This document shows positions 2,791-15,549 of a stretch of 64,000 nt of DNA, one piece after another. The notes below the pieces were generated by a model. It saw only the letters and a list, made by a program, of their open reading frames with translations, ran no database searches and was not told where the DNA came from. A program made the position numbers and the translations under genes. How positions within the stretch are numbered: the stretch's first letter is position 1; each line of letters begins with the position of its first letter. The stretch spans positions 62,001-126,000 of the forward strand of contig NZ_CP058350.1 in NCBI RefSeq assembly GCF_005860795.2, written 5' to 3'. The stretch comes from Peteryoungia desertarenae (lineage in GTDB: Bacteria > Pseudomonadota > Alphaproteobacteria > Rhizobiales > Rhizobiaceae).

Positions 2791-3666
2791 TTACTCGGCC
2801 GCGAGCGCGGTTTCGCCGGCATAGTCTTCGACGAAGGCTGCCATCTGCTCCATGAAGATGGAAATGGAACCGGCGAGCGCGTCAAAATCGGGACGCTTCT
2901 GCAAGCTAGCTTCATCAATGTAAAGCGACCGGTTCACCTCGATCTGCAATGCATGCAGACCTCGCGCCGGACGACCGTAATGCTCGGTAATGAAGCCGCC
3001 GGCATAGGGCTTGTTGCGCACCGCGTTGAAGCCGAGCTCTTCCAGGAACTGCAGCGCAGCATGGGACAATTCGGCTGACGCACTGGTTCCATAGCGGTCC
3101 CCGACGATGAAATCAGGACGCACACCACTGCCCGCCACGCGAATATTGCCCGGCATGGAATGGCAATCGATCAACACGCCAAATCCGAAACGCGCATGCG
3201 TGCGGGCAATCAGCCGTCGCAGGCAGACATGATATGGCTTGTAGCAGCGATCAATCCGCTCCATCGCCTCGGCGAGCGTAATACGCCGTCCGTAAATCTC
3301 CATGTTTTCAGCAACGATGCGTGGGATGGTCCCAAGACCGCCCACCACCCGTGGTGACTGGCTGTTGGCATAGGACGGCAGTGATTCGCTGAACATGCGG
3401 GGATCGAGCTCATAGGGCTCCCGATTCACATCCACATAGGCACGCGGAAAATGTGCCATCAACAACGGCGCACCCATGCGGGGTGCCGCAGAGAACAGCT
3501 CATCGACAAAATGATCTTCAGAGCGCCGTATGGAAATGCCATCCAGTTGAGATTGCTCGAGAAAAGAAACGGGATAACGACGACCGCTATGCGGCGAGTT
3601 ATAGACGAAGGGGATCGACTGCGCTTCCGGCTCGCGGACCTCGAACAGCTCGAAATCGCTCGTCAT
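2791..3666 (-). CDS. N-formylglutamate amidohydrolase family protein
   Basis: A 291-residue protein of the N-formylglutamate amidohydrolase family, whose characterised members hydrolyse N-formyl-L-glutamate to formate and glutamate at the end of histidine degradation. Seen motifs are YNSPHSGRRYP near the N terminus, the RSEDHFVDELF block, ELDPRMF, LIDCHSMPG with likely metal ligands, and LQIEVNRSLYIDE near the end. Start 3666 gives MTSDFELFEV. No other hut genes are present, so a role in histidine catabolism is inference only; many rhizobia carry isolated copies. The MmgR-like sRNA terminates about 60 bases past its stop, on the opposite strand. Confidence 0.88.
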   Translation of the reverse strand: MTSDFELFEVREPEAQSIPFVYNSPHSGRRYPVSFLEQSQLDGISIRRSEDHFVDELFSAAPRMGAPLLMAHFPRAYVDVNREPYELDPRMFSESLPSYANSQSPRVVGGLGTIPRIVAENMEIYGRRITLAEAMERIDRCYKPYHVCLRRLIARTHARFGFGVLIDCHSMPGNIRVAGSGVRPDFIVGDRYGTSASAELSHAALQFLEELGFNAVRNKPYAGGFITEHYGRPARGLHALQIEVNRSLYIDEASLQKRPDFDALAGSISIFMEQMAAFVEDYAGETALAAE

Positions 3667-7517: not shown

Positions 7518-10500
7518 ATGGCAATAAAGGCAAGCATTTATCATCTCACCCACTACAAATACGACAAGCCGATCAAGCTCGGCCCCCAGATCATCAGGTT
7601 GAAGCCCGCCGCTCACTCCCGGACGAAGGTCTTGAGCCATTCCCTCAAGGTCACGCCTGAGAACCACTTCGTGAACCTGCAGCAGGACCCCTACGGCAAC
7701 TATCTCGCGCGATTCGTTTTTCCCGACCCCGTCACAGAGTTCAAGATCGAGGTCGATCTCGTTGCCGACATGACGGTCTACAACCCCTTCGACTTTTTTA
7801 CGGAAGAAGAAGCGGTCAAATGGCCATTCGATTATCCGCAGGACATCCGGGACGATCTGGCGATCTATCTCAAGCCTGAAGCCGGAACGCCGGTGCTCGA
7901 CGCTTACATGGAGACACTGGACCGCTCGCCGGGTCAGGGAACAGTCGACATGATTGTCGGCCTCAATGCTCGCCTGCAGCGCGATATCAATTACGTCATC
8001 CGGATGGAGCCAGGTGTTCAGACGCCAGACGAAACCCTGACTTCCGGAAAGGGCTCCTGCCGCGATTCGAGTTGGCTGCTCGTTCAGATCCTGCGCCGCC
8101 TGGGCATCGCTGCCCGTTTTGTATCGGGTTACCTGATCCAGCTGACGCCGGACCTGAAGGCACTCGACGGTCCATCCGGCACCGAAGTCGATTTCACCGA
8201 CCTCCACGCCTGGTGCGAGGCCTATATTCCGGGCGCAGGTTGGATCGGCCTCGACCCAACTTCGGGTCTGTTAACCGGGGAAAGTCACATCCCGCTGGCC
8301 GCCACACCCCACTACAAGAATGCAGCGCCAATCTCCGGTGGCTATTACGGTGTCGCAAACACAGAATTCACCTTCGACATGCAGGTGAAGCGCGTGGCGG
8401 AGCATCCGCGCATCACCAAGCCATTCTCGGATGAAAGCTGGGAAGCGCTCAACGCGCTCGGACATCAGGTGGACGCCGAACTCCGCGCCCGGGACGTAAG
8501 GCTGACCATGGGTGGCGAGCCGACCTTCGTGTCCATTGACGATTTTCAATCGGACGAATGGAATACGGCAGCGGTTGGTCCGACCAAGCGCAGCAAGGCC
8601 GATGATCTGATCCGTCGCCTACGCGAGCGCTTCGCGCCGGGCGGTTTCCTCCATTATGGCCAGGGCAAGTGGTATCCCGGCGAAAGCCTGCCTCGCTGGA
8701 CCTTTTCGCTATACTGGCGCCGCGACGGTCTACCGGTGTGGAACAGCCCTGAACTTGTTGCCGTCGAAAACAAAGATTACCGGATCACCCACGAAGATGC
8801 AGAGAAGCTCCTGGCTGCAATTGCGATCGAGCTTGACCTGTCGACGGACAATGTGGCCCCCGCCTATGAGGATCCGGCAGAATGGATCGTCAAGGAGGCC
8901 AACCTGCCGGAAAATGTCGATCCTTCCAATTCCAAGCTGAAAGATCCCGAAGAACGCAGCCGCATCGCCAAGGTGTTCGGCAATGGCCTGACAAATCCGG
9001 CGGGCTATGTGCTCCCGGTTCAGGCGTGGCAGGGCCGTGCCTCCGGTCGCATCTGGGTTAGTGAAAAATGGCGCACCCGTCGCGGACGGCTTTATCTGGT
9101 GCCTGGCGACAGTCCGGTCGGCTTCCGGCTACCGCTCAACTCTCTGCCCTACGTGTCGCCCTCATGGTACCCCTATATCAACCCCGTCGATCCGACTGTC
9201 GAGAAACCACCTTTGCCTGACTTCTCGACCGAGAAGGGCCGGGTCATGCCGGAGCATTCTCTTAAGGCAGATGGCGGTCAGCAGCTGCAGATGGGGCAAT
9301 CTTACGAGGAAATCGGCGGACGCGTGCGCACCGCCATATCCGTCGAGGCAAGAGATGGCCGGCTCTGTGTATTCATGCCACCGACAGCTGCTCTTGAGGA
9401 TTATCTCGATCTTGTGGCCTCGGCGGAGAGGGCTGCCAAGGCTGTCAATCTGCCGGTGCACATCGAAGGCTATACCCCGCCGCATGACGAGCGCTTGAAC
9501 GTCATTCGCGTCGCACCCGATCCGGGCGTCATAGAAGTGAACATTCATCCGGCCTATGACTGGGATGATTGTGTCGCGACCACGACAGCCATCTATGAGG
9601 AGGCCCGTCTTTGCCGTCTCGGGGCCGACAAGTTCATGATCGACGGTCGCCACACCGGAACCGGTGGTGGCAACCATGTCGTCGTCGGTGGCGCAAATCC
9701 GAATGACAGCCCCTTCCTGCGGCGCCCGGATCTGTTGAAGAGCCTGGTCTTGCATTGGCAGCGCCATCCATCGCTGTCCTACATGTTCTCCGGCCTGTTC
9801 ATCGGACCGACCAGCCAGGCGCCCCGTATCGACGAGGCACGACATGACAGCCTCTATGAGCTGGAAATCGCGATGGCGCAGATCCCCCTGCCGGGGAATG
9901 GCGAACTTCCACCCCTGCCCTGGCTCGTCGATCGCCTCTTCCGCAACCTGCTGATCGATGTCACCGGCAACACCCACCGCTCGGAAATCTGCATAGACAA
10001 GCTGTTTTCGCCTGACGGCCCCACAGGACGCCTTGGTCTGGTAGAGTTCCGGGGCTTTGAAATGCCGCCGAATGCGCGCATGTCGCTCGCCCAGCAATTG
10101 CTGATCAGGGCGTTGATCGCGCGCTTCTGGAAAAATCCGATTACCGGCAATTTCGTCCGCTGGGGTACCGCGCTGCATGATCGCTTCATGCTTCCGCACT
10201 TCATCTGGCAGGACTTCCTCGAAGTTCTGGCGGATCTTCGCGATAATGGCTTCGACTTCAAGCCGGAATGGTTTGCCGCGCAACTCGAATTCCGCTTCCC
10301 CTTCTTCGGCGAAGTCGAGTACGAGGGCTCGAAGCTGGAACTGCGTCAGGCGCTGGAACCCTGGCATGTCATGGGCGAACAAGGCGCAATCGGCGGCACC
10401 GTGCGTTATGTCGACAGCTCCGTCGAGCGGCTGCAGGTGCGTCTGGAAACGGCCAATCCGGAGCGCTTCACCGTCGCCTGCAATGGCCGCCGTGTGCCTC

Positions 10501-10844
10501 TTTCCAAAAGCGGAACATCAGGGGTGACGGTCGGTGGCGTCCGCTACAAGGCATGGCAGCCGGCATCGGGTCTGCACCCGGCTCTGCCCGTCAACACACC
10601 GCTAACATTCGACATCTATGATACATGGTCGAAACGCTCGATCGGCGGCTGCGTCTACCACGTGGCCCATCCCGGCGGGAGGAATTATGACACTTTCCCT
10701 GTGAACGGGAACGAAGCGGAAGCAAGACGGCTTGCACGTTTCGAGCCATGGGGCCATACAGCCGGCTCCTATCCGCTTTGGCCCGAAACCGTATCGCCAG
10801 AGTTTCCGCACACACTGGACCTGAGACGACCCCAGGGTATCTGA
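7518..10844 (+). CDS. Transglutaminase-like / DUF2126 protein
   Basis: An 1108-residue two-part protein. The N-terminal third is a transglutaminase-like cysteine peptidase fold with a bacterial N-terminal domain ([18 protein letters not shown]). Its triad is visible: Cys181 in GKGSCRDSS, His230 in DLHAWCEAY and Asp246 in GLDPTSG. The rest is the large DUF2126 region, with [25 protein letters not shown], the Gly-rich [15 protein letters not shown] and [16 protein letters not shown]2126 has been related to amide-bond-forming or -cleaving chemistry by comparative genomics only. It is followed after four bases by the ATP-grasp/alpha-E gene and then by a second transglutaminase, so the three products very likely act together. 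Confidence 0.88.
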
Positions 10845-10848
10845 CAGA

Positions 10849-13263
10849 ATGGCGAACACACCGGCTGCGGAAAAGGCTCCGCCAAAACCTGAAGAGACCA
10901 TAGCCCGCACCAGCGGCTATCGCCTCTTGCCGGGTGCCGCAGACGAAATGCTGGACCAGCAAGGCAATGTACGGCCAGTATGGCAACACTTCGTCTCCGC
11001 CATTGACCAGATGTCCGAGCACGACCTGCATGAACGTTTTGCCCGTGCCGACCGCTATTTGCGCGATGCAGGCGTTTTCTACAGAGCCTATGGCGCGGGC
11101 GGCAGCACAGATCGGGCGTGGCCATTTTCGCATATCCCTGTCCTGATTTCAGAAGCAGAATGGCAGGTTCTGGCTGAAGGGCTGGTACAGCGGGCCAACC
11201 TGTTGGAGCAGGTGGTTGCCGACATCTATTCCGAAAACCGACTGGTCGAGCAGGGTTTCCTGCCACCGGCGCTCATCGCTGGAAACCAGGAATTCCTGAG
11301 GCCGCTGGTCGGGGTCAAGCCGGCAAGTGGGCACTATCTCCACTTCTGTTCCTTCGAAATCGGACGAGGTCCGGACGGGAACTGGTGGGTACTTGCCGAC
11401 CGCACACAGGCTCCCTCTGGTGCAGGTTTCGCTCTGGAAAACCGGGTGGCAACGGCCCGTGCCTTTTCGGATATCTATTCCGAGACCCACGTCCATCGTC
11501 TGGCCTCGTTCTTCGGGGCATTCCGCTCTGCTCTTCAGAGCTACAACCGCAGCAATGACGGTCGCATCGCGATCCTGACGCCGGGTCCGGCCAACGAAAC
11601 CTATTTCGAGCACGCTTATATTGCGCGCTATCTTGGCATCATGCTGCTCGAGGGCGAGGACCTGGCGGTGGTCAATGGCAAGGTAATGGTCCGCACCGTT
11701 GCCGGCCTGAAGCCGATCAGTGTCCTTTGGCGACGCCTCGACGCCACCTATGCCGACCCGCTCGAGCTCAATCAGCAATCCCATATCGGCACACCCGGGA
11801 TGGTGCATGCGCTGCGCAACGGCTCGGTCAACTTCGTCAATGCGCTTGGCACAGGCATCCTGGAGACAAGGGCGCTTCTCGCCTTCTTACCGACGATCTG
11901 TCGGCATATGACGGGCGAAGATCTGAAACTTCCCTCGATCGCCACATGGTGGTGTGGCCAGAAAAGCGAGCGCGATCATGTCGCTCGCAATCTGGACCGC
12001 ATGGTCGTCGGCCCTGCCTTCACCGGAATGCCCTTCTTTGACGATAACGGCCGCTCGATCCTTGGTTCACGCTACAAGAGCGAAAAGGGTATCAGCGCAG
12101 CCGAGTGGCTGGAAAGACAGGCAGGCAATCTTGTCGGCCAGGAAGTTGTCACCCTCTCGACGACACCGGCCATGGTAGACGGCAAGTTGGTGCCACGCCC
12201 GATGAGCCTTCGCGTCTTCGCTGCCCGAACGAAAAACGGCTGGCAGATCATGCCGGGCGGCTTTGCCCGGATCGGCAGCGGGTCTGATGTCTCGGCCATT
12301 GCCATGCAATCGGGCGGCAGTGCCGCTGATGTCTGGATCGTCTCCGACAAGCCGGTCGACCGCACCTCGCTGCTGCCAACGGAAGAAAGCTTCACCCGCA
12401 ACATGCCGGGCAGCCTGCCGAGCCGAGCTGCCGACAATCTGTTCTGGCTGGGTCGCTATATCGAGCGGGCGGAAGGTGTTTTGCGTATACTGCGAGCCTG
12501 GCATGCGCGTTATGCGGAGTCAGCAAATCGGGACCAGCCGCTGCTGGCGAATGTCACCGAATATCTCTCGCTGATCGACGTTGATACCACGACAGGCGTG
12601 CCCGAAAGCCTGCTGCGCAACATCGACAGCGCCGTTTATTCGGCAAGCAACATCCGCGACCGTTTTTCGCCCGACGGATGGCTGGCACTGAATGACCTTT
12701 CGAAGACGGCAAGGCGGTTCCATGAGCGCGTGAAGCCCGGTGACGATGCCGCCCATGCCATGACGATCCTCCTGCGCAAGCTCGCGGGCTTTGCTGGTCT
12801 GGTGCATGAAAACATGTACCGCTTCACCGGCTGGCGCTTCCTCACGATCGGACGCCTTCTGGAACGCGGCCTGCACATGACACGATTGCTCGGCCATCTG
12901 ACGGAAGCGGAGACGCCGGATGGTGCGCTCGATATGCTGCTGGAAATCGGCGATAACGTCATGACCCATCGTCGGCGCTATAATGTCAACACGGCGGGCT
13001 TGACGGTCACAGACCTGCTGGCCCTCGATCCGCTCAATCCGCGATCGATCCTGTTCCAGCTCGACGAGATCCGTATCGAGGTCGAGCAATTGCCCAACGC
13101 CAAGATCAATGGCCAGATGTCGCTGCTGCTGCGCGAAGCCGTTCGCCTTCATTCCGGTCTTGCCGTGATGACGCCCGAGACCATGACAAAAAACATCTAT
13201 GAAAGCCTGGAGCGAGATCTGGAGAAGTTTTCGGACATCCTGGCGCGAACTTATCTCGGGTGA
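10849..13263 (+). CDS. Circularly permuted ATP-grasp + alpha-E domain protein
   Basis: An 804-residue fusion. The first ~450 residues form a circularly permuted ATP-grasp type 2 domain, with FCSFEIGRGPDGNWWVLADR, IAILTPGPANETYFEHAYIA, LLEGEDLAVVNGKVMVRT and ATWWCGQKSE. The C-terminal ~300 residues are the all-helical alpha-E domain with its NLFWLGRYIERAE signature. In many bacteria the two domains are separate neighbouring genes; here they are one polypeptide. Such ATP-grasp enzymes are predicted to make amide bonds to an acyl group, perhaps a small peptide or peptide tag. It starts four bases after the DUF2126 gene and overlaps or nearly touches the next gene. Confidence 0.88.
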   Translation: MANTPAAEKAPPKPEETIARTSGYRLLPGAADEMLDQQGNVRPVWQHFVSAIDQMSEHDLHERFARADRYLRDAGVFYRAYGAGGSTDRAWPFSHIPVLISEAEWQVLAEGLVQRANLLEQVVADIYSENRLVEQGFLPPALIAGNQEFLRPLVGVKPASGHYLHFCSFEIGRGPDGNWWVLADRTQAPSGAGFALENRVATARAFSDIYSETHVHRLASFFGAFRSALQSYNRSNDGRIAILTPGPANETYFEHAYIARYLGIMLLEGEDLAVVNGKVMVRTVAGLKPISVLWRRLDATYADPLELNQQSHIGTPGMVHALRNGSVNFVNALGTGILETRALLAFLPTICRHMTGEDLKLPSIATWWCGQKSERDHVARNLDRMVVGPAFTGMPFFDDNGRSILGSRYKSEKGISAAEWLERQAGNLVGQEVVTLSTTPAMVDGKLVPRPMSLRVFAARTKNGWQIMPGGFARIGSGSDVSAIAMQSGGSAADVWIVSDKPVDRTSLLPTEESFTRNMPGSLPSRAADNLFWLGRYIERAEGVLRILRAWHARYAESANRDQPLLANVTEYLSLIDVDTTTGVPESLLRNIDSAVYSASNIRDRFSPDGWLALNDLSKTARRFHERVKPGDDAAHAMTILLRKLAGFAGLVHENMYRFTGWRFLTIGRLLERGLHMTRLLGHLTEAETPDGALDMLLEIGDNVMTHRRRYNVNTAGLTVTDLLALDPLNPRSILFQLDEIRIEVEQLPNAKINGQMSLLLREAVRLHSGLAVMTPETMTKNIYESLERDLEKFSDILARTYLG

Positions 13264-13265
13264 CC

Positions 13266-14147
13266 ATGCTTTATGATGTGAACCTGCATATCGGCTATGC
13301 GTATGAGGTGCCGGCTTCCGGCGCGCACCATACCCTGCGTCTTCTGCCCCTTTCCGTTGAAGGACGACAGCGCCTGATCGCAGGCGCGATCACCATATCT
13401 CCGGAACCGGATGAACGCGCCAACTTCATCGATTTCTTCCGCCATCCGGCGAGCCATGCGATTTTGAGAGCACCGCATGAGCGGCTCGACATCAGGATGC
13501 AGGCACGGGTCCAGGTGCAAGGCCAACCTGTACAGGCGGATTTTTCGCCGCTTCTTGAAAGCCTGCCGCAGGAGCTTGCCCAGACCTGGTCGCTGGAACC
13601 GGAATCACCGCATCACTATGTCAGCCCAAGCCCGCGTCTAACCCCAGTTTCGGCAATCGCAGACTACGCCCGCGATGTGATCAGACCCAGCATGACAGTC
13701 AGGCAGATCGCAGAAGCACTTTGCCGACAGATCCACAAGGATTTCAAATACGATACGGACACGACAACCGTCGACACCACTCCCGCCGAAGCTTTCGAAT
13801 TGAAATCGGGCGTTTGCCAGGACTTTTCGCATGTCATGATCCTGGCCTTGCGCAGCCTTGGAATACCGGCGGGCTACGTCTCGGGCTTCCTGCGCACCAT
13901 TCCGCCGCCCGGCAAGGAAAGACTTGAGGGTGCCGATGCGATGCACGCCTGGGTACGGATATGGTGCGGAAAGACGGTCGGCTGGATTGAACTTGACCCT
14001 ACCAACAATATTCCTGCCGGAACCGATCATATCGTAGTTGCCTACGGACGTGACTATGCCGATGTCGCACCCGTCATCGGCGTCTTGAAAAGCTACGGCA
14101 ATCATGCAACCTCTCAGGCTGTGGATGTCATCCCGATCAAGCCTTGA
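13266..14147 (+). CDS. Transglutaminase-like cysteine protease family protein
   Basis: A 293-residue bacterial transglutaminase-like protein. The N-terminal beta domain (MLYDVNLHIGYAYEVPASGA) precedes the catalytic core, with Cys184 in SGVCQDFSH, His227 in MHAWVRIWC and Asp244 in IELDPTNN. Such proteins are usually peptidases or amidases rather than true cross-linkers. The ATG at 13266 is preferred to a GTG at 13260 that would overlap the previous stop codon; either way the gene is translationally close to the ATP-grasp gene. It probably cleaves or trims a substrate made by the ligase partner; this is inference from context. Confidence 0.87.
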   Translation: MLYDVNLHIGYAYEVPASGAHHTLRLLPLSVEGRQRLIAGAITISPEPDERANFIDFFRHPASHAILRAPHERLDIRMQARVQVQGQPVQADFSPLLESLPQELAQTWSLEPESPHHYVSPSPRLTPVSAIADYARDVIRPSMTVRQIAEALCRQIHKDFKYDTDTTTVDTTPAEAFELKSGVCQDFSHVMILALRSLGIPAGYVSGFLRTIPPPGKERLEGADAMHAWVRIWCGKTVGWIELDPTNNIPAGTDHIVVAYGRDYADVAPVIGVLKSYGNHATSQAVDVIPIKP

Positions 14148-14292: not shown

Positions 14293-15549
14293 ATGGACAT
14301 GATGACTGACACAAAGAGACAGAAGCCACTTCTGAAGCGCCTGATGAAGGATCGTGGCGGCAACTTCGGAGTAATGAGCGCAATCCTCATTCCGGTGGTG
14401 TTTGCCACAGCCGGTGTGGCCATGGATCTGAACAGGATGGTGAATCTCCGGTCTGCCCTGCAGGACTCGGCCGACGCGGCCGCCATGGCAGCCGCATCAG
14501 CCATGGCAAGCGACGGCATAAGCGAGCAAAAAGCCATCGAAATGGCCAAGGACTTCATGGCTTCCCAGTTCAAGAACGTCATCACGCCGAACAACGCCGA
14601 CCTTGAGAACAACGAAAAAGGCGGTACTGATGCGGGGGAAGAACTCAAGGATACCGCGATCAGTACGGCGCAGAAGATCAAGGACGAAGGAGCATCAAAG
14701 ACGTTCGAGGTGACGATCTCTGGACGCTACAATGTCGAACTGACCGGACTGACGCGCTTGCTCGGCTGGAAGACGGCCCCGATCAGCGTCAGCAGCACCG
14801 CACAAAGCACCACCGAAAGCAAGAATGCTCTTTCCATGTTCCTTGTTCTGGACCGTTCCGGCTCCATGGCCTGGGACACTGAGCAGGTGAACGAAGCGGA
14901 ACCGACCAAGACGATCAGCGAGCATTGTGGATGGGATTGGCGCGGCAATCGCTGGGTTGCTCGCTACTGTGACAGAACGGTCACAAACTACGTCACCAAG
15001 ATGGAGGCGCTGAAGCTCGCTGTTGCAAACCTTGTTGATGTACTCAACGAAGCGGATCCTCAGAAAAAACTCGTCCGTACGGCAGCGATTTCCTACCACT
15101 CATCCATGCAACAGCCGACCAAGCTGGAATGGGGTACGAAAAAGGCGATGGAGTATGTACAGGCTCTGCCCGCCAGCGGCGGCACCGATTCCTCTGACGC
15201 AATGGCAAGGGCCTACAGGGATATATCGGACGCTTCGGAGTACGCAGCCCATAAGAACATGAATGGCCAGACAAATCCCGGCAGGTTCATTGTGTTCATG
15301 ACCGATGGCGACAACAACCAGCAGATCGCCGACACGGAGACACTTGCGACCTGTGACGAAGCCAAGCTCAACAATGTGGAGGTTTTCACTGTTGCTTTCA
15401 TGGCACCGGATCGCGGAAGAAATCTGCTGAAACAGTGCGCAACGAAAACCAGCAATTACTACGATGCCAACAACGCTGCCGAACTCGTGGCCGCATTCAA
15501 GGATATCGGACAGAAAGCTTCCGAAGCGACCGTTCGGCTAACGAACTGA
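14293..15549 (+). CDS. TadG-like pilus-assembly protein with von Willebrand A domain
   Basis: A 418-residue protein. After a basic N terminus comes the TadE/TadG signature GNFGVMSAILIPVVFATAGVAMDLNRM, a single membrane helix, then a hydrophilic linker and a VWA domain. The metal-ion-dependent adhesion site is intact: Asp187 in VLDRSGSM, the Thr of GGTDSSDA and the Asp of MTDGDNN. TadG-type proteins are anchored in the inner membrane with the VWA domain in the periplasm and accompany Flp pilus assembly. No tad/cpa genes are here, so this is an orphan copy; rhizobia often carry several. A strong terminator follows. Confidence 0.85.
   Translation: MDMMTDTKRQKPLLKRLMKDRGGNFGVMSAILIPVVFATAGVAMDLNRMVNLRSALQDSADAAAMAAASAMASDGISEQKAIEMAKDFMASQFKNVITPNNADLENNEKGGTDAGEELKDTAISTAQKIKDEGASKTFEVTISGRYNVELTGLTRLLGWKTAPISVSSTAQSTTESKNALSMFLVLDRSGSMAWDTEQVNEAEPTKTISEHCGWDWRGNRWVARYCDRTVTNYVTKMEALKLAVANLVDVLNEADPQKKLVRTAAISYHSSMQQPTKLEWGTKKAMEYVQALPASGGTDSSDAMARAYRDISDASEYAAHKNMNGQTNPGRFIVFMTDGDNNQQIADTETLATCDEAKLNNVEVFTVAFMAPDRGRNLLKQCATKTSNYYDANNAAELVAAFKDIGQKASEATVRLTN

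Follow-up and report, generated by a model that had tools for sequence, protein, structure and literature searches.

Three tightly spaced genes in the window (the whole 64,000-nucleotide stretch analysed here, C1:62001-126000 of the three-contig, 4.34-Mb genome of Peteryoungia desertarenae) encode a transglutaminase fused to a DUF2126 domain (TG1-DUF2126), a circularly permuted (CP) ATP-grasp domain fused to an alpha-E (alphaE) helical domain, and a second transglutaminase (TG2). This three-gene cluster is not self-contained. A second set, in which an intact CP-ATP-grasp, alphaE, and a transglutaminase are separate genes, lies 214 kb away in the same genome. Since the distribution of the window set falls inside that of this split set, the former is best seen as an accessory half of the latter. 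Judged from its residues, the ATP-grasp domain of the fused protein is very probably a pseudo-ligase that lacks a functional ATP/Mg site. An earlier, sequence-only reading of the window had cast the ATP-grasp-alphaE fusion as a ligase held in a fixed ratio to its helical domain; it missed both DUF2126 as the likely ligase and the intact CP-ATP-grasp of the second set.

The fused protein (10849..13263, + strand, 804 aa; Pfam CP_ATPgrasp_2/1 and Alpha-E) has its ATP-grasp match at residues 97-475 (11137..12273, +) and its alphaE domain at residues 523-803 (12415..13257, +). Nine positions at or neighbouring the ATP/Mg site were picked from 16 fused and 26 split ATP-grasp domains and then scored in 47 fused and 60 split proteins, which include those first alignment rows. 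All 60 split proteins hold nine of nine, whereas each of the 47 fused proteins holds one to four and the window protein holds one. The fresh rows alone give the same picture, with nine of nine in 34/34 split proteins and four or fewer in 31/31 fused proteins; a fused-type frame in one genome (G069, locus L139) that matches the ATP-grasp queries weakly was excluded from the 47. The sites lost in the window protein (split equivalents in parentheses) are A183 (E155), R185 (N157), G388 (K363), M394 (G369), P395 (G370), and S453 (D423), as well as A485 (N454), just past the end of the Pfam match. Among the 47 fused proteins, E155 is retained in one, K363 in 11, and N157, D423, and N454 in none, such that the Mg ligands are missing in nearly all fused proteins sampled and the Gly-rich loop and Lys in most. 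The Mg ligands of trypanothione synthetase are Glu344 and Asn346, and Lys513 and Lys548 contact phosphates (PMC3581523). The lost E-x-N motif fits the former pair, and K363 may be the counterpart of Lys513 or Lys548, as suggested by the Gly-rich loop that directly follows it. A permutation test over seven sites gave p 0.0003, but D423 and N454 were picked after their loss was seen and we do not use the test as support.

The fused and split ATP-grasp domains are parted by a single branch of length 1.04 with a Shimodaira-Hasegawa-like approximate likelihood ratio (SH-aLRT) support of 100, in an unrooted tree built by a quick method with SH-aLRT in place of bootstrap and with long branches inside the fused group. 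We take the split state to be ancestral because other synthetases have its motif as well. The only solved relative of either CP-ATP-grasp type returned by sequence search is 3n6x, a putative glutathionylspermidine synthase from Methylobacillus flagellatus; it carries the split-type motifs and scores 620 bits against the split paralogue versus 241 bits against the ATP-grasp half of the window protein.

The fold itself is retained. Thirteen polar or aromatic residues that are invariant in the split type persist in at least 45 of the 47 fused proteins. The model of the fused protein (predicted local distance difference test, pLDDT, 84.8) matches CP-ATP-grasp synthetases, 42 chains of them at E <= 0.001, and superposes on 3n6x with E 4.5e-30 and TMt 0.83. 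This intact fold, together with a CP_ATPgrasp_2 match of 453 bits, far above the cut-off, is what could be said for the view that the fused protein is an active amide ligase with alphaE as its fixed partner and that the three genes form a complete make-and-cleave pathway. A stand-alone ATP-grasp from the Yersinia bercovieri Anbu operon is reported to release phosphate from ATP (PMC6376114). The loss of at least five of nine sites in every fused protein, set against full retention in every split one, and the constant presence of split-type alphaE in genomes with DUF2126 (see below) make such a pathway very unlikely, and with the Mg ligands gone the fixed ligase-to-helical-domain ratio proposed earlier is not supported.

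A decaying gene would be expected to look different. In comparisons of the window protein with 18 close relatives, the median dN/dS is 0.098 over 170 pairs for the pseudo-grasp domain and 0.090 (171 pairs) for alphaE, whose ER motif shows, across 26 fused proteins, an invariant R540 and an E539 conserved to at least 90%. Purifying selection and a kept fold thus suggest a needed, non-catalytic protein and a gene retained for another job. In 65 of 66 pairs from 12 genomes the split domain is nonetheless the better conserved of the two (mean identity 56.8%, vs 43.6% for the fused domain). Some pseudokinases bind ATP in another way and carry out different chemistry, and by analogy the fused domain might be a re-purposed nucleotide enzyme. 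The pocket residues D142, R171, E229, D246, D278, R425, and D463 are kept in at least 45 of the 47 fused proteins, and this near-fixed pocket under strong purifying selection would suit such an enzyme. The strip of the former Gly-rich loop, in contrast, is more relaxed (median dN/dS 0.224 over 147 pairs of the same relatives) and its columns hold many residue types in fused proteins, and we regard re-purposing as unlikely, with the proviso that residues invariant only in fused proteins were not systematically searched for. Database names still label the fused protein a type 2 ATP-grasp protein, and a phrase search of the open-licence literature found no paper on inactive or degenerate ATP-grasp domains.

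The split set lies at L010 6676-9876 (C1 ~290675-293875) and consists, in that order, of an ATP-grasp (469 aa, nine of nine sites), alphaE (315 aa), and a transglutaminase (274 aa). CP-ATP-grasp, alphaE, and transglutaminase thus occur together in both sets, with the window ATP-grasp degenerate. We followed both sets through two samples within Pseudomonadota, a class sample in which each of 96 alphaproteobacterial families is represented by a single genome and a phylum sample of 199 genomes. DUF2126 is found in 14/96 and 60/199 genomes and alphaE in 35/96 and 115/199, respectively. The split-type, high-scoring alphaE is present in all 60 DUF2126 genomes of the phylum sample versus 54 of the 139 without DUF2126, and in 14/14 versus 20/82 in the class sample; one further phylum genome without DUF2126 (G211) has a lower-scoring stand-alone copy. 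Fisher tests give 3.5e-19 (phylum) and 5.8e-8 (class), uncorrected for relatedness and from samples that share some genomes. The split ATP-grasp, sought in the loci that were fetched, was found in 14/14 class genomes and 36/37 phylum-sample DUF2126 genomes, the alphaE contig of the 37th (G137) lying outside the fetched loci.

Physical linkage points the same way. DUF2126 and the split alphaE are 849-8990 bases apart on one contig in 30 of the 60 DUF2126 genomes, and 32 of the 47 DUF2126 loci that were fetched contain both halves, with the choice of loci leaning towards such cases (13 came from the class survey, and 34 were hand-picked from the phylum survey for close sets). The usual order in a joint locus is split ATP-grasp, alphaE, TG1-DUF2126, fused protein, and TG2. 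One may still suppose that the DUF2126 set forms a pathway of its own, tied to the split set by no more than ancestry and co-occurrence, since in the window's own genome and in 30 of the 60 DUF2126 genomes the halves were not found within 9 kb on one contig and the Fisher tests ignore relatedness. Against this stand the universal split alphaE in DUF2126 genomes of both samples and its much patchier occurrence elsewhere, and the joint loci, subject to their selection. We hold independence to be improbable, and a functional coupling of the window and split halves to be probable with good confidence.

The fused gene follows DUF2126 closely, if not always. In the phylum sample, 55 of the 60 DUF2126 genomes have, besides the split type, an alphaE of low score that sits in a long frame and counts as fused type; these frames were counted by hand, with the listing completed for 30 genomes and the ATP-grasp part verified in fetched loci. 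The earlier reading expected the three genes to stay together, and for the most part they do. In 54/60 genomes the long-frame alphaE shares a contig with DUF2126 and is no more than 4 kb from it, and a same-strand transglutaminase overlaps the fused gene or lies within 300 bases of it in 41/41 loci. The expectation fails in one genome with the frame on another contig (G253) and in five where none was found (G125, G137, G152, G163, and G168), with DUF2126 near a contig end in G137 and G168. The fused gene is present in 41 of the 47 fetched loci and on the DUF2126 strand in 30 of those 41; in the class sample, 12 of 14 DUF2126 genomes have a fused alphaE nearby on the same strand, the exceptions being G091 and the fragmented G025. 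Three of the genomes where no fused pseudo-ligase was detected (G125, G163, and G152; L170, L179, and L190 with L191) belong to one family and carry DUF2126 with a split ATP-grasp, alphaE, and transglutaminase; the pseudo-ligase scaffold seems dispensable in that family.

The converse arrangement also exists. In four class genomes (G012, G044, G057, and G073) the fused gene is present with TG2 but DUF2126 is not, and a fused-type frame probably exists in G069 as well. Seven of the 139 phylum genomes without DUF2126 have a long-frame alphaE (G012, G201, G211, G255, G257, G273, and G277). Since TG2 accompanies the fused gene even where DUF2126 is lacking, it fits better than DUF2126 as the partner of the fused protein. 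We note that G255 and G257, from the window's own family, carry both alphaE types and no DUF2126 match; they are possible recent losses of TG1-DUF2126 and, as such, natural deletion cases. Among 14 named control genomes, DUF2126 was matched in Synechococcus elongatus only, and alphaE there and in Caulobacter.

With the fused ATP-grasp probably inactive, DUF2126 is likely the best ligase candidate among the window genes, because of its Pfam name (putative amidoligase), the glutamine synthetase (GS)-type matches of its model, its invariant candidate residues, and its high conservation. The domain (8355..10826, +) spans residues 280-1103 of TG1-DUF2126 and has a predicted GS-like fold. An AlphaFold2 model built from a 24-sequence alignment (pLDDT 72.8) returned GS-family proteins in all 50 listed Foldseek rows and all 50 listed VIA rows, with modest scores. 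E334, E673, H720, E843, and R845 are invariant in 46/46 aligned homologues, and we propose these as GS-type active-site candidates on the basis of GS motifs. The mean identity of the domain between families is 58.9%, compared with 56.8% for the intact ATP-grasp. Kinship at the level of sequence was rejected as proven, hhalign of DUF2126 against six GS-family proteins from the same genome being non-significant; a single local alignment, likewise non-significant, pairs the PG-x-x-E and glycine-rich NH/MH stretches of the two. We regard DUF2126 as a probable GS-like ligase, putatively active. In one genome (G141, L186:346-3596) the DUF2126 copy lies close to the end of a contig and is interrupted by a TAG in frame. 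The word DUF2126 was found in no paper of the open-licence literature.

The remaining active-capable parts of the window set are TG1 and TG2, which are predicted from their domains and triads to be transglutaminase-fold cysteine enzymes. TG1 is the N-terminal portion of the first gene product (7518..10844, +, 1108 aa; Bact_transglu_N, Transglut_core, and DUF2126), and TG2 is encoded at 13260..14147 (+) from a GTG (295 aa) or 13266..14147 from an ATG (293 aa), with Bact_transglu_N and Transglut_core. The ATG is the likelier start, residue 3 being where most of 80 homologue matches begin. The TG1 triad C181/H230/D246 is intact, exactly as first reported, and invariant in 46/46 aligned homologues. 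The TG2 triad is also intact; the positions first given for it, C184/H227/D244, hold in ATG numbering and become C186/H229/D246 from the GTG. Across 51 aligned rows, its Cys and His are found in 51 and its Asp in 49. TG1 has a mean identity between families of 65.5%, again versus 56.8% for the split ATP-grasp, and the split-set transglutaminases show C in 14/18, H in 18/18, and D in 10/18 at automatically chosen columns. The transglutaminase fold serves cross-linking as well as proteolytic activity. Rv2569c is a putative member of this transglutaminase family. It is reported as a serine protease, although its conserved-domain match suggested a cysteine protease (PMC11081392).

Open reading frames (ORFs) and Pfam matches bear out the three genes, their domain contents, and the gaps of a few bases claimed earlier. 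Genes 1 and 2 are 4 bases apart, and genes 2 and 3 overlap by 4 bases (GTG) or are separated by 2 (ATG). The closest named relatives of the window are Rhizobium, Peteryoungia, Allorhizobium, and Ciceribacter. In the best 80 of 588 confirmed loci, nearly all titled Rhizobiaceae or Rhizobiales and hence not independent, the three genes keep the same order in 80/80, with gene 1 broken by a contig end in five; the arrangement is not chance. Flanking genes in these loci are less constant (VWA 78/80, glycogen phosphorylase 69/80, ManC 43/80, FAA hydrolase 15/80). Since whole chromosomal segments are conserved among the 80 loci, the wider genome surveys were made. The VWA gene, encoding a Tad/VWA (TadG-like) protein (14293-15549, +) directly downstream of TG2, has no known tie to the cluster, and its product is variable in sequence (34-59% identity) in spite of its near-constant presence. 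About 4 kb upstream of the cluster lies an N-formylglutamate amidohydrolase-family gene (2791-3666, -), which encodes an amide-cutting enzyme.

Around the sets, 137 of 232 listed neighbour ORFs were scanned, at lengths of 150 aa and above, and no recurrent extra partner such as a transporter, precursor peptide, or hydrolase was found among them; a shorter ORF may thus encode a small peptide substrate. No Pfam family among the top 25 exceeds four occurrences in 90 ORFs around DUF2126/fused loci, and Proteasome is the top neighbour family in 47 ORFs around split sets, with three, again among the top 25. In this genome the split set is followed, after a few kb, by a phage capsid/Mu-like gene (L010:13180-15024, -), and a prophage may adjoin the set there.

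The Anbu operon, described in PMC6376114 and PMC5666114 (citing Iyer 2009) as ATP-grasp, alphaE, transglutaminase, and Anbu, has the same three enzyme families; the split set has them in the order ATP-grasp, alphaE, transglutaminase. The present sets differ from it: neither has an Anbu gene beside it in this genome, and the window genes add DUF2126 and an ATP-grasp-alphaE fusion whose ATP-grasp is degenerate. Two Proteasome-family matches exist in the genome, a 176-aa frame taken as HslV and a 231-aa gene (L096:8648-9343, C1 ~1968647-1969342; PF00227, 34.5 bits), neither near either set. Anbu as the missing peptidase of this genome was rejected: the 231-aa gene lies near Mrr_cat and RVT_1 (reverse transcriptase) genes, may belong to a defence-like island, and has no blastp match at 1e-4 to 11 split-set neighbours, mutually similar proteasome-like ones included. 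Two proteins of 257 and 264 aa (L127:5249-6019 and L147:9289-10080), 45% identical and from two alphaproteobacterial families, directly adjoin split sets and are probably Anbu, Proteasome being the top neighbour family around such sets. The Anbu-operon ATP-grasp is reported to release phosphate, Anbu was without peptidase activity on the substrates tested, and pull-downs gave no specific interaction (PMC6376114); in the absence of stress the operon is non-essential, and nitrogen limitation raises Anbu in Pseudomonas putida (PMC5666114). Marine metagenome correlations link these domains with urea metabolism (PMC3597751), and in Sinorhizobium a genome-wide association study links a regulatory hit to a COG2308 gene (PMC8407117). 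The Pseudomonas rlo operon pairs an ATP-grasp with an inactive transglutaminase (PMC12239564) and is a different system, with the inactivation reversed relative to the window set.

Two further comparisons concern chemistry. Glutathionylspermidine/trypanothione synthetase-amidases share the CP-ATP-grasp fold of the fused protein (2io7-2io9, 2vps) and join ligase and amidase in one chain, as TG1-DUF2126 may do. The fused protein, however, lacks their E-x-N Mg ligands, and neither half of TG1-DUF2126 would share its fold with them, the GspS amidase fold presumably differing from that of TG1. The GS-like amidoligases (GS, GmaS, and Dop) would resemble DUF2126 in its predicted fold and its conserved Glu/His/Arg positions; at ~830 aa DUF2126 is longer than the listed GS chains and has no significant sequence match to them.

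The general idea of an amide-making and -cutting set with an undefined substrate is supported, in a changed form. We propose that five to six genes would form one system for making and breaking amide bonds, with the three window genes as its accessory half. The core half would be the split set at C1:290.7-293.9 kb, outside the window; there, the intact CP-ATP-grasp would act together with alphaE and a transglutaminase-fold enzyme to make a first amide and yield a peptide-like product. DUF2126 would then carry out a second ATP-dependent ligation, and the amide would be cut or transferred by the cysteines of TG1, which shares a chain with DUF2126, and of TG2. The ATP-grasp-alphaE fusion would be non-catalytic; it would bind either the product or a partner and bring what it has bound to TG2, the neighbour that it constantly has. 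As a whole, this scheme of two ligases, transglutaminase-fold enzymes, and a dead-ligase scaffold is one we favour slightly; the order of steps, the scaffold role, and the choice of cleavage or transamidation are inferred. A role of the fused protein as a scaffold or substrate-presenting subunit for TG2 is tentative.

If true, the scheme would have wider reach, and we offer it as a possibility somewhat short of probable: the dead ATP-grasp-alphaE would be a subunit, conserved widely, that handles substrate without catalysis on behalf of a transglutaminase-fold partner within a two-ligase conjugation system, whose DUF2126 ligase carries its own cysteine amidase, in the manner of glutathionylspermidine synthetase but with other folds. 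The family has so far been treated as an undefined ligase/transglutaminase set, and its candidate active enzymes and second locus can now be named. Deletions or assays confined to the three window genes would overlook the intact ATP-grasp that lies 214 kb from them, and the fused protein would probably fail in a ligase assay in vitro if the pseudo-ligase reading is true. With six named genes, the question of the substrate becomes directly testable.

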